Shown here piece by piece: positions 10,679 to 46,639 of a stretch of DNA of 64,000 nt. Position 1 is the first letter of the stretch. Every line of letters starts with the position of its first letter. The translations under genes were made by a program, and so were the position numbers. The notes beneath the pieces were generated by a model. It had not been told where the DNA came from, did no database searches, and saw nothing but the letters and a program-made list of their open reading frames with translations. The stretch comes from an uncultured Opitutia bacterium. GTDB taxonomy: Bacteria > Verrucomicrobiota > Verrucomicrobiia > Opitutales > Opitutaceae. The stretch is from NCBI GenBank assembly GCA_903825285.1, contig CAIJZY010000046.1, positions 62,001 through 126,000 on the forward strand. The letters run 5' to 3'.

Positions 10679-10734
10679 GGGGAATGTGGCTGGAGATGAG
10701 ATAAAACCGCGGCCGAGTCGAATGGTTACTCTTT

Positions 10735-10872
10735 TTTACCGCGCAGGTCGCGAAGCCCGCAAAGTTCAGCCCGGCCTGAGCACAAAGCGGGCCCCAATGC
10801 CCGGATCTAACCCGCACCTGGGCCCGACGAATCGGGGCTGGGCTTCGCGCCCTTCGCGCGCTTCGCGGTGAA
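10735..10872. repeat. Intergenic inverted repeat, 9-bp CGCGAAG family
   Basis: Left arm 10735-10764 and right arm 10841-10872 are imperfect reverse complements made of units like CGCGAAGCC. The ends read TTTACCGCG and CGCGGTGAA. The right arm ends 3 bases before the stop of the kinase gene. This is the same family that bounds the GxxExxY gene at 31.1 kb. Confidence 0.75.
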
Positions 10873-10875
10873 GCC

Positions 10876-15363: not shown

Positions 15364-15834
15364 ATGGACACCCTTCTTATCGACGTGCCGGTCCCTTCGA
15401 TGGGCGCGACTGTCAGTGAACTCAATGTGATCGTGATCAAGGTCAGCCCCGGCGACCGGGTGACCAAGGGCCAGCGCCTGGCCGACCTGGAAAGCGACAA
15501 GTCGGCCTTTGAATTCGAGAGCCCGTGCGACGGCATCGTGCGCGAGATGCTCGGCCAGCCCGGGGCGACGATGAAGTCGGGGGATGTTTTCTGCCGGATC
15601 GAGACCACGGACAGCACGCTGCGGCACCTCGCGGAGCCGGCCGCACCCGCGCCCGCGGCGCCCGCGCCGAAGGCGGCGGGCCCGGTGGTCTGGACGCCCC
15701 GCGCGACCAAGCTGGCGCAGGAGGCGGGGCTCGATCCCGCGAAGATCACCGACATCGAGGCGACCGGCCCCGGCCACCGCGTCTCCGGCGACGACGTCCA
15801 GCGCTACCTCGCCGCGCGCAAGGGCCAGGATTGA
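15364..15834 (+). CDS. Lipoyl domain plus E3-binding domain protein without acyltransferase
   Basis: 156 residues. Residues 1-80 form a lipoyl/biotinyl domain with the modified-lysine segment DLESDKSAFEFESP. An Ala/Pro linker follows. Residues about 113-150 form a peripheral subunit-binding domain (PRATKLAQEAGLDPAKI then GHRVSGDDVQRYL). The family's usual 2-oxoacid acyltransferase domain (about 230 residues) is missing and the stop is clean. It may be an accessory swinging-arm protein for a 2-oxoacid dehydrogenase encoded elsewhere. No E1 or E3 gene is nearby. The stop abuts a nested palindrome exactly. Confidence 0.8.
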   Translation: MDTLLIDVPVPSMGATVSELNVIVIKVSPGDRVTKGQRLADLESDKSAFEFESPCDGIVREMLGQPGATMKSGDVFCRIETTDSTLRHLAEPAAPAPAAPAPKAAGPVVWTPRATKLAQEAGLDPAKITDIEATGPGHRVSGDDVQRYLAARKGQD

Positions 15835-15990
15835 TTCACCACGAAGGTCACGAAGCGCACAAAGCCTTCGCGGGCTTGGCGGTCTTCGCGGTTAGATTCC
15901 ATTTCCGTCCAAACCAGTTACCGCGAAGCGCGCGAAGATCGCGAAGCCCGGCAGGTTTGGACTTCGTGCGCTTCGTGAGCTTTGTGGTAA
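15835..15990. repeat. Nested palindrome filling a convergent gap
   Basis: Outer arms 15835-15864 and 15962-15990 (CACGAAG 9-mers) enclose inner arms 15865-15894 and 15918-15949 (CGCGAAG 9-mers). Both pairs are inverted and concentric. It starts at the base after one stop codon and ends 4 bases before the other. Confidence 0.8.
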
Positions 15991-15994
15991 AACC

Positions 15995-17071: not shown

Positions 17072-17103
17072 TTTGACCGCCAAGACCGCGCAGCCCGCGA
17101 AGG
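17072..17103. repeat. Single 9-bp CGCGAAG-family arm
   Basis: TTTGACCGCCAAGACCGCG followed by CAGCCCGCGAAGG, the same arm type as 31041-31070. A weak partner (GTGTGCTTGGCGG) follows at about 17118. Confidence 0.5.
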
Positions 17104-18772: not shown

Positions 18773-18989
18773 TTCTTCGTGGGCTTCGTGACCTTCGTGG
18801 CAAGGATCATTCCGTGAGCAGCGCAGTCGTCGCCTCGCGCTTCCGGGTCCATCCCGTGCGCTTCCTTCTGCGCCTCCGCCACTCCGCGTTTCGGCGATCA
18901 TTCCCTGGGTGAATTTCACCACGAAGGTCGCGAAGCACACGCAGGCCGTCCCCCACGGAATCCCCTTCCATCCGCGTCATCCGCGGGAG
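18773..18989. repeat. Mosaic of four repeat arms
   Basis: 18773-18803 (TTCGTGGGC-type 9-mers) pairs with 18914-18941 (CACGAAGGT-type). Between them lies 18855-18895 with CTTCTGCGCCTCCGCC-like units. Outside lies 18965-18989 with ATCCGCGTCATCCGCGGG, the family that is perfect at 29.7 kb. The 300-bp gap holds nothing else that I recognise. Confidence 0.65.
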
Positions 18990-30919: not shown

Positions 30920-31040
30920 CCCCCGTCGCTAGCGGCCCCCGCGCCCGGCGCAATCTCCGGCGTCGGGCCCCGCGCGCAATGAAGCGAAGCTGTCGGTTTC
31001 CGTTAGCTGGGTTGCTTGCCGTGACGCTCCCCAACCTTGT

Positions 31041-31485
31041 TTCACCGCCAAGATCGCTAAGCTCGCGAAGATGGAGATCGAGACTGTCGGAAATCAGGTG
31101 GTGGACGCGGCGCTCGTGGTGCATCGGGCACTGGGCCCGGGTTTGTTGGAATCATCCTATGAACAGTGCCTAGCGTTCGAGCTGCAGCGGCGCGGGCTCA
31201 GAGTTGAACGTCAAAAGGCGCTCCCTTTGGTTTATCACGGGCTGCGCATCGATGCCGGATATCGGGTCGATCTATGGGTCGAGCACAAGGTCATCGTGGA
31301 GTTAAAGGCCGTGGATCGCATCGAACCAATCCACCGGGCCCAGCTGCTTGCCTACCTGCGCCTCTCCAAGCAGCCTCTGGGCTACCTGATCAATTTTAAC
31401 GTGCGCTTGCTTCGAGAGGGTTTGCATCGTCTCGTGCTGAATCTGCCCGAGCCCCCTTCGCGCTCTTCGCGTCCTTTGCGGTGAA
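31041..31485. mobile_element. Candidate unit: GxxExxY gene bounded by inverted repeat arms
   Basis: Left arm 31041-31070 begins TTCACCGCCAAGATCGC. Right arm 31456-31485 ends CCTTTGCGGTGAAA. They are reverse complements with about six mismatches and belong to the 9-bp CGCGAAG family also seen at 10.7, 15.9 and 17.1 kb without any gene inside. The left arm ends at the base before the ATG. The right arm encodes the last nine residues and the stop. No target-site duplication is evident. Calling it mobile is inference. Confidence 0.45.
31071..31484 (+). CDS. GxxExxY protein (PD-(D/E)XK nuclease-like)
   Basis: 137 residues. The name motif is G24-LLE27-SSY30 in LGPGLLESSYEQCL. A PD-(D/E)XK-like core is visible: D67 in YRVDLWVEHK and E77-L-K79 in VIVELKAVD. 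The C-terminal end (PSRSSRPLR) is translated repeat arm and not family sequence. The family is widespread in Verrucomicrobiota and relatives and has no established function. ATG at 31071 sits directly on the end of the left repeat arm with no Shine-Dalgarno. Its TGA overlaps the GTG start of the next gene (GTGA). Confidence 0.88.
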   Translation: MEIETVGNQVVDAALVVHRALGPGLLESSYEQCLAFELQRRGLRVERQKALPLVYHGLRIDAGYRVDLWVEHKVIVELKAVDRIEPIHRAQLLAYLRLSKQPLGYLINFNVRLLREGLHRLVLNLPEPPSRSSRPLR

Positions 31486-32482
31486 AAAAAACTTCGAACA
31501 CGCCCGCCGGTTGTTGTGCGCGCTGCAGGTCGACCTGCGCGGGGCGCTGATCGCCGCGCGCGCGCGGCAGGCGCACACGTTCGCCCGCGTCGCCGCGGTC
31601 ACCGCCGCCGACACCATCTACCAGGTCGACAAGGTCTCCGAGGCCGTGATCCTCGCGTGGTTCGAGCGGCACTGGCCCCGCGCCTGGCCGGTCGAGCTGG
31701 TGATGGAGGGCGTCGACGAGGCGGAGCCGCTGACCTTCCCGCGCGGCACCCCGGTCGCGAAGACGGCCTTCAAGTGCCTGCTCGACCCGATCGACGGCAC
31801 CCGGAACCTGATGTACGACAAGCGCGCCGCCTGGGCGCTGGCCGCGCTCGCCCCGCAGCGCGGCCCCCGCACCCACCTCGGCGACATCGTCGTCGCCGCC
31901 ATGACCGAGCTGCCCACGTCCAAGCAGGCCGCCTCCGACCAGCTCAGCGCCGTGCGCGGCCGCGGGGTCGTCGCCCAGCGGCACGACCTCCGCACCGGTC
32001 GTCGCCGCCGGCTCGCCGTGCGGCCCTCGCCGGCCCGCCACTTCGAGCACGGCTTCGCCTCGATCGCGCGGTTCTTCCCCGAGGGCAAGGCCCTGCTCGC
32101 CACGCTCGAGGAGGACCTCTGGCGCCAGCTCGGCCTCCTCGGCAGGCGCGGCGGCCAGCTGGTCTTCGACGACCAGTACCTCTCGACCGGCGGACAACTC
32201 TATGAGCTCGCCGTCGGCCATGACCGCATGCTCGGCGACCTGCGCCCGCTCGCCTACGTGAAATTGGGACTCGGGTCCGCGTCGCTCTGCTGCCATCCCT
32301 ACGACATCTGCACGGAACTCATCCTCCGCGAGGCCGGCGGCCTGGTCGAGACGCCCGACGGCCGCCCGCTGCGCGCGCCGTTCAACACCACCACGCCGGT
32401 GGCGTGGATGGGCTACGCCAACCCCGCGCTCGCGCGGGTCGTCCGGCCGATTTTAAAGCGGCTGATCCGGAAGCATCTGTGA
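31481..32482 (+). CDS. Inositol-monophosphatase-family protein
   Basis: 333 residues. The metal-binding motif LDPIDGTRNLMYDKRAAWAL is clear. Upstream the acidic ELVMEGVDE takes the place of the family's first glutamate motif. The second aspartate motif reads CHPYDICTELILREAGG instead of WDxAAG. The family removes phosphate from inositol-1-P, PAP or fructose-1,6-P2; the substrate here is unknown, perhaps a sugar phosphate given the neighbouring arabinose genes. Start is the GTG at 31481, which overlaps the GxxExxY stop and lies inside the repeat arm. No better internal start was found. Confidence 0.75.
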   Translation: MKKNFEHARRLLCALQVDLRGALIAARARQAHTFARVAAVTAADTIYQVDKVSEAVILAWFERHWPRAWPVELVMEGVDEAEPLTFPRGTPVAKTAFKCLLDPIDGTRNLMYDKRAAWALAALAPQRGPRTHLGDIVVAAMTELPTSKQAASDQLSAVRGRGVVAQRHDLRTGRRRRLAVRPSPARHFEHGFASIARFFPEGKALLATLEEDLWRQLGLLGRRGGQLVFDDQYLSTGGQLYELAVGHDRMLGDLRPLAYVKLGLGSASLCCHPYDICTELILREAGGLVETPDGRPLRAPFNTTTPVAWMGYANPALARVVRPILKRLIRKHL

Positions 32483-46534: not shown

Positions 46535-46568
46535 AAAATTGGGCAGGCGGCCGGAACAAGGCGGATAG

Positions 46569-46639
46569 CACCACGAAGGACACGAAGCGCACGAAGGCCA
46601 ACCTTTCCATCTGGTCCGGGCTTCCTGTCCTTCGTGGTC
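46569..46639. repeat. Inverted repeat, CACGAAGGA family, unequal arms
   Basis: Left arm 46569-46597 has three 9-bp units; right arm 46621-46639 (CTTCCTGTCCTTCGTGGTC) has about two. It lies between the two propeller-like paralogues. Confidence 0.7.

Follow-up and report, generated by a model that had tools for sequence, protein, structure and literature searches.

The GxxExxY gene in the window (the whole stretch of 64,000 nt of DNA analysed here) lies within a pair of inverted arms, and the same unit of arm, gene and inverted arm is found again in many phyla. The gene is inherited jointly with its arms, a single genome can hold several subfamilies, each with arms of its own, and arms without a gene, similar to those of the resident genes, are dispersed through the genome. 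We consider it somewhat probable that the window locus is one copy of a widespread REPIN/RAYT-like unit with a PD-(D/E)XK nuclease, and these arm-gene units point to an overlooked kind of mobile repeat system.

The GxxExxY gene of the window and its arms

The gene product matches the PDDEXK_3 profile (PF13366; E 1.7e-41, 141.7 bits against a curated cut-off of 22) and the GxxExxY profile TIGR04256 (E 5.7e-42, 142.7 bits against a cut-off of 35), and PF13366 was the only match in a Pfam-A scan. An inverted repeat of 34 nt (31037-31070 / 31456-31489), 79% complementary, brackets the gene; in the 30-nt arms delimited by the first-pass annotation, 24 of 30 positions pair. Each arm is composed of three units of about 9 nt, in which seven bases are followed by two more (CGCNAAG NN). 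TTCACC forms the outer tip, and that of the right arm overlaps the start codon (GTG, 31481) of the following ORF. The first-pass annotation had described the gene as exactly bounded by its arms. This layout of a gene within inverted arms was confirmed, as the left arm stops directly before ATG 31071 and the right arm codes for the C-terminus and the stop codon (Table 1). The element sits between two protein genes of the window, which has 70% GC and belongs to a draft genome of 3.74 Mb (G000). On its own the arm pair is improbable to a moderate degree only, an equally high score having been reached by 7 of 1000 Markov-simulated flank pairs; its weight comes from its recurrence elsewhere.

Among 45 sequences, E27, D67, E77, K79 and Y95 are invariant and Q91 is near-invariant; this E-D-ExK-QxxxY layout we take to be that of Cas4, RecB and lambda exonuclease enzymes. 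The AF2 model of the window protein (pLDDT 92.4, pTM 0.83) has Cas4 SSO0001 as its best structural match (Z 9.9, rmsd 3.6, 99 aligned). Foldseek gave lambda exonuclease at E 0.002, with tRNA-splicing endonucleases also among the matches, and no match at E 0.001 or better; matches of Cas4 profiles to the protein were weak, and no match was found among PDB sequences or in the phage collection. That no HUH enzyme is among the 50 VIA-align matches listed says nothing by itself. The protein is like Cas4, lambda exonuclease and RecB-type enzymes in its E...D...ExK...QxxxY layout and its fold, and unlike them in being a single minimal domain. Cas4 has iron-sulphur cysteines. Having the fold, as modelled, and the catalytic residues of the PD-(D/E)XK group, the window protein is predicted to be a nuclease. 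The values of dN/dS were 0.10/1.27, 0.20/1.60 and 0.20/3.18 for the three of six pairs with defined dS; since dN is about 0.1-0.2 against a dS of 1.3-3.2, the gene is under purifying selection.

Table 1. Arms and GxxExxY gene in the window (strand of an arm: that on which it reads 5'-TTCACC)
Feature	Position	Strand	Remarks
Gene-free arm, left partner of inward-facing pair	10734..10764	+	
Gene-free arm, right partner of inward-facing pair	10843..10873	-	
Gene-free arm, first of four-arm cassette	15834..15864	+	
Gene-free arm, second of four-arm cassette	15866..15896	-	
Gene-free arm, third of four-arm cassette	15916..15946	+	
Gene-free arm, fourth of four-arm cassette	15962..15992	-	
Single gene-free arm	17072..17102	+	
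Gene-free arm	18914..18944	+	weak second arm 18775-18805 matches 20/31
Left arm of the gene	31037..31070	+	TTCACCGCCAAG AT CGCTAAG CT CGCGAAG; ends one base before start codon
GxxExxY / PDDEXK_3 gene	31071..31484	+	137 aa; E27, D67, E77-x-K79, Q91, Y95 all present
Right arm of the gene, inverted copy	31456..31489	-	encodes last eight residues SRSSRPLR and stop
Single gene-free arm	46566..46596	+	

Recurrence of the unit in other genomes

The GxxExxY family is carried by 40 of the 57 genomes of the relatives set, own genome included. A total of 218 loci were examined (133 from the relatives set, the best 80 of 580 confirmed from named records, and 5 viral), and arms were scored by local alignment of one flank against the reverse complement of the other, with a threshold of 28. 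Arms at or above the threshold were present in 110 of 132 testable loci of the own genome and its order-level relatives, in 64 of 77 testable loci from many phyla including archaea and at 5/5 viral contig loci, against 5/199 outer-flank controls. The question put by the first-pass annotation, whether homologues generally have flanking arms, is thus answered in the affirmative. On the strength of the outer-flank control, chance or base composition was rejected as the source of the arms. For the cross-phylum and viral set, 3/194 outer flanks score as arms, and the cross-locus control is higher (19/246) because the arms share a motif. The loci below the threshold (22/132 order-level, 13/77 cross-phylum) count against the explanation favoured below; the threshold misses some visible arms, for example those of L021.

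Clear arms in the named set were seen in Acidobacteria, Chloroflexi, Bacteroidetes, Planctomycetes, Verrucomicrobia, Proteobacteria, a Dojkabacterium and Methanosarcinales archaea (groups taken from record titles). A GxxExxY gene with an arm score of 45 also lies on the 24.8-kb record NZ_OY725952.1 of Bacteroides finegoldii (L289), packed between radA and the gene of an FAD-dependent protein; the record is typed as a plasmid, yet carries thrA, asparaginase and radA and may be a piece of chromosome. Only 7 of 72,556 plasmid records matched the window protein, and the one inspected has no near-identical record to show an empty site. The arms of the viral-contig genes L145-L148 are rich in AT and quite different in sequence (the AAATTTTACTTAAAATTT type in L147/L148).

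All four GxxExxY genes found in the own genome have arms, and these differ from pair to pair (CGCNAAG, CACGAAA, CGCTAAT and CGCGGA types). The tip TT(T)AACC opens both arms (108 anchored elements), and the element is AT-richer than its flanks in 106/108. For 39 elements with a strict 9-nt period, the left and right arms agree at 0.82-1.00 in unit positions, counting only those outside the positions fixed by the motif that selected the elements, and at 0.62-0.67 in spacer positions. A strict three-unit CRCNRA pattern, which covers just part of the arm diversity, occurs in 204/436 gene flanks (300 nt), on both sides in 85/218 elements, and in 8 of the outer zones.

Gene-free arms in the window and in its genome

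The arms reported by the first-pass annotation at 10.7, 15.9 and 17.1 kb were recovered as a pair (10734-10873), a group of four (15834-15992) and one arm (17072-17102), and the window holds two others, 18914-18944 and 46566-46596. Exact matches to an IUPAC three-unit arm pattern number 245 in the own genome, against 0 for the reversed control. Among 100 listed arms (of the 245), 73 have another arm within 300 nt, and the 44 pairs of neighbours are 24 inward, 8 outward and 12 direct, so that the repeats occur mostly as inverted doublets, a trait of the REPIN type. Cassettes of four arms like that in the window recur at G000 C14:95570-95730, C22:1338-1499 and C24:10001-10167; they consist of two inward-facing pairs, and in the G000 examples listed the outer arms are of the CACGAAG type and the inner ones of the CGCNAAG type.

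Arm density and presence of the gene

The median density of arms was 5.96 per Mb in the 40 genomes with the gene and 0.00 in the 17 without it (p 4e-7); the contrast held with one genome per genus (p 4e-6) and within the family (p 0.02, with only 4 genomes lacking the gene), all these tests being confounded by phylogeny and genome size. Repeats equally abundant without the gene, which the first-pass annotation had named as a refutation, were therefore not what we found: they are much rarer. Counting against a link between gene and arms, the four gene-free genomes of the family still hold 4-16 arms, two carriers of the gene have none by the IUPAC three-unit pattern, and among carriers the number of arms cannot be predicted from gene copy number (rho 0.21, p 0.20).

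When dispersed arms were compared with gene arms in five genomes, they resembled those of the genes of their own genome more closely than those of almost any other genome; the genome's own genes ranked 1 of 30 for the own genome (98 of the 245 arms of G000) and 2, 1, 1 and 2 of 37 for the four others. The ranking used 11 of 22 arms for G039, after ten arms from the arrays C73 and C69 and a single gene arm had been dropped; for G056 only one arm of the cluster beside the gene was removed, and its rank is consequently flattered; G044, with ten listed arms, was left out. The gene is thus flanked by a repeat that is dispersed in the same genome, as in REPIN/RAYT systems.

Co-variation of arms and protein

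The co-variation tests took 177 of the 218 elements, with an arm score of at least 28, a protein of at least 85 aa without stop and an arm of at least 16 nt. Protein identity correlated with arm similarity among 108 order-level loci (Mantel r 0.24) and 64 cross-phylum loci (r 0.35), with 0 of 300 permutations reaching the observed r in each set. A nearest-protein test kept the 100 of 108 elements that had a paralogue and at least 45% identity to their nearest other-genus protein. The nearest other-genus protein had more similar arms than the own-genome paralogues in 83 of these 100, and its arms were also more similar than those of other elements of that same other genome in 78/93. Mean arm similarity between genera climbs from 0.25 to 0.66 with protein identity, and same-genome pairs average 0.27. 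Host background does not explain the correlation between arms and protein; the co-variation would also be expected if arms and gene merely travelled together, without recognition.

Among 101 arm-bearing elements with a paralogue, only one same-genome pair exceeded 75% identity, and a genome nearly always has a single GxxExxY gene of any one subfamily. IS-like self-amplification of the gene-bearing unit was accordingly not seen.

Shared sites compared between genomes

A site between two conserved genes of the genus could be compared in 11 of 12 genomes. Five of the 11 have the gene there, with three arm types (CACGAAA, CCACGGAA and CGCGAAT); the five proteins fall into three subclades with 0.58-0.62 identity between subclades, and each subclade is close to other-genus elements of the same arm type (0.69-0.77 identity). 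By visual reading of the six gene-free genomes, the anchors lie only 16 and 27 nt apart in two, a degenerate arm pair is present in one, a heptamer arm pair in two and another sequence in one; G001 and G011 have neither an element nor an arm pair at the site. Five genes in three subclades with other-genus kin speak against vertical inheritance alone. At the window's own site, G008 has the whole gene with visible arms, G009 the gene and right flank, G003 a partial match, and G001 one degenerate arm and no gene (visual reading). No target-site duplication was detected in 108 anchored elements.

Comparison with known systems

The RAYT gene is characterized, in parts of PMC3116915, as a distinctive single-copy gene flanked by its own type of repeat, with its nearest relatives in other genomes and gene-free inverted doublets in the same genome. 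GxxExxY genes are alike in all these respects, being single-copy per subfamily, with their own arms at the flanks, kin in other genomes and gene-free inverted doublets. They differ in the enzyme, which is PD-(D/E)XK instead of Y1 HUH, with no Y1 HUH domain found, and in the arms, which are three tandem units of about 9 nt, whereas a REPIN side is a GTAG-tagged hairpin. Because the defining Y1 HUH enzyme is absent, the GxxExxY unit is not a member of REPIN/RAYT. TIRtrons/TIRYT, according to parts of PMC3733652, have a Y1 gene inside long terminal inverted repeats, and some of these repeats exist as gene-free families too; they are like our unit in that a small gene lies within terminal inverted repeats, and unlike it in enzyme class, the window locus having no Y1 gene between its repeats. 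The intervening sequences of 23S rRNA (S23p, PF05635) likewise have a small ORF in terminal inverted repeats of short tandem units. Their protein is unrelated, their units are heptamers against 8-10 nt here, and the classic ones lie inside rRNA genes, whereas the window has a PF13366 gene between two protein genes. In open-licence PubMed Central full text we found no report of arms around the GxxExxY family, prior art elsewhere being possible; the GxxExxY papers there are not about repeats, PDDEXK_3 is absent, and arm strings gave a chance match only.

Possible explanations for the arm-gene units

Under the explanation that we favour, the PD-(D/E)XK protein would recognise the tandem units of about 7 nt of its own arms and cut there, probably when the arms form a hairpin or cruciform or are single-stranded during replication. 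Repair or copying after the cut would then spread short arm pairs through the genome, and the gene would remain at about one copy per subfamily, occasionally moving between species or replacing another subfamily at the same site. The unit would work like REPIN/RAYT with a nuclease like Cas4 or lambda exonuclease in place of the Y1 HUH transposase. Against this count the missing signal of target-site duplication, the lack of a Foldseek match at E 0.001 or better and the fact that no movement was caught between near-identical strains. The first-pass annotation had suggested a REPIN/RAYT-like system; this interpretation is supported in part and has gained strength, and the comparison is apt for the single-copy gene, the other-genome kin and the inverted doublets; that the nuclease recognises or moves the arms is a step we infer. 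It had also taken the gene-bearing form as autonomous and the gene-free pairs as its copies. The dispersed arms do match those of the resident gene. "Autonomous" is doubtful, since hardly any genome holds the gene-bearing form in duplicate, and this rarity makes the GxxExxY gene resemble RAYT more than a self-copying element.

The arms might instead be the homing sites of a parasitic nuclease gene and not its products: the arm pairs would be older repeats, the nuclease would cut empty pairs, and host repair would copy the gene in. The same orthologous site holding different subfamilies, a degenerate arm pair, heptamer arms or nothing is what repeated occupation predicts, and the absence of target duplication and the exact bounding of the gene by arms also fit. 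Nevertheless, we regard homing as unlikely, because the arms track the protein across genera and so arrive with the gene, the element-free site-mates G001 and G011 show no arm pair, and the gene has not multiplied into the many pairs on offer. A passenger or self-regulatory role, in which the arms are autoregulatory sites or mRNA hairpins and dispersed copies were spread by an unrelated route, appears improbable to us. It would account for arms at the gene borders and for units better conserved between arms than the spacers, which regulatory binding would also produce, but it predicts neither hundreds of gene-free copies resembling resident subfamilies nor the scarcity of arms in gene-free genomes.

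Two further readings would give the arms to other known systems. As elements acting at the RNA level, like the 23S rRNA intervening sequences, the arms would pair in RNA, RNase III would cut and the protein would act on RNA. PF05635 genes do share the layout, with heptamer arms (17/30 loci against 0/26 controls), and the intervening sequence of Coxiella has a 28-bp terminal stem and tandem heptamers (parts of PMC4990558). The window unit, however, lies between two protein genes, the protein fold resembles DNA nucleases (although tRNA-splicing endonucleases also matched), spread between sites would still need a DNA step, and no Rfam match was obtained in the 17 arm-bearing PF05635 loci; we consider this reading very improbable. 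It is hardly credible that Y1 (HUH) transposases of the RAYT/TIRYT kind move the arms in these genomes, although 41/57 relatives contain Y1_Tnp, the own genome with 3 matches, and a link of REPs and TIRs to such enzymes has been published (parts of PMC3116915 and PMC3733652). Four genomes without a Y1_Tnp match are nonetheless rich in arms (G008 235, G055 31, G027 50 and G033 28), and within the stretch fetched only 1/32 Y1 loci has a three-unit arm of the GxxExxY type beside it, while 14/32 have inverted ends of their own with GGGGTCA. We therefore rejected Y1 transposases as owners of the arms.

To return to the nuclease-driven unit that we favour, it would, if true, mean that a REPIN-like repeat population has a PD-(D/E)XK nuclease, and no transposase, as its driver, and the natural protein-arm pairs would be a ready specificity code of which protein goes with which 7-nt unit. 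It would offer a first testable role for a common family whose function is unknown, assign a class of dispersed repeats crossing phyla to a likely owner, and make the persistence of miniature repeats in bacterial genomes directly testable with a protein of 137 residues. More broadly, and with doubt slightly outweighing belief, GxxExxY nucleases, which occur in bacteria, archaea and viral contigs, may define a class of mobile element of their own, in which a minimal Cas4-like nuclease is paired with tandem-unit inverted arms that match it, disperses arm pairs and changes arm specificity while it diversifies. Such a class would account for common repeats of the type ACC(A/G)CNNAG... that have had no owner so far, with S23p/IVS elements as a counterpart built on heptamer arms; through the resemblance to 23S rRNA intervening sequences, two puzzles would come under one architecture.

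Inverted ends of Y1 and PF05635 loci

The 14 Y1 loci with GGGGTCA in their own terminal inverted repeats (L302, L304-L310, L312, L314, L316-L318 and L320) are like published TIRtrons. The PF05635 (four-helix-bundle / 23S intervening-protein) loci are L034-L063 from related genomes, with inverted arms counted at a score of at least 28; as they gave no Rfam match, the arm-bearing ones do not lie inside rRNA genes within the stretches examined. Their arms consist of short tandem units, mostly heptamers (period 7).
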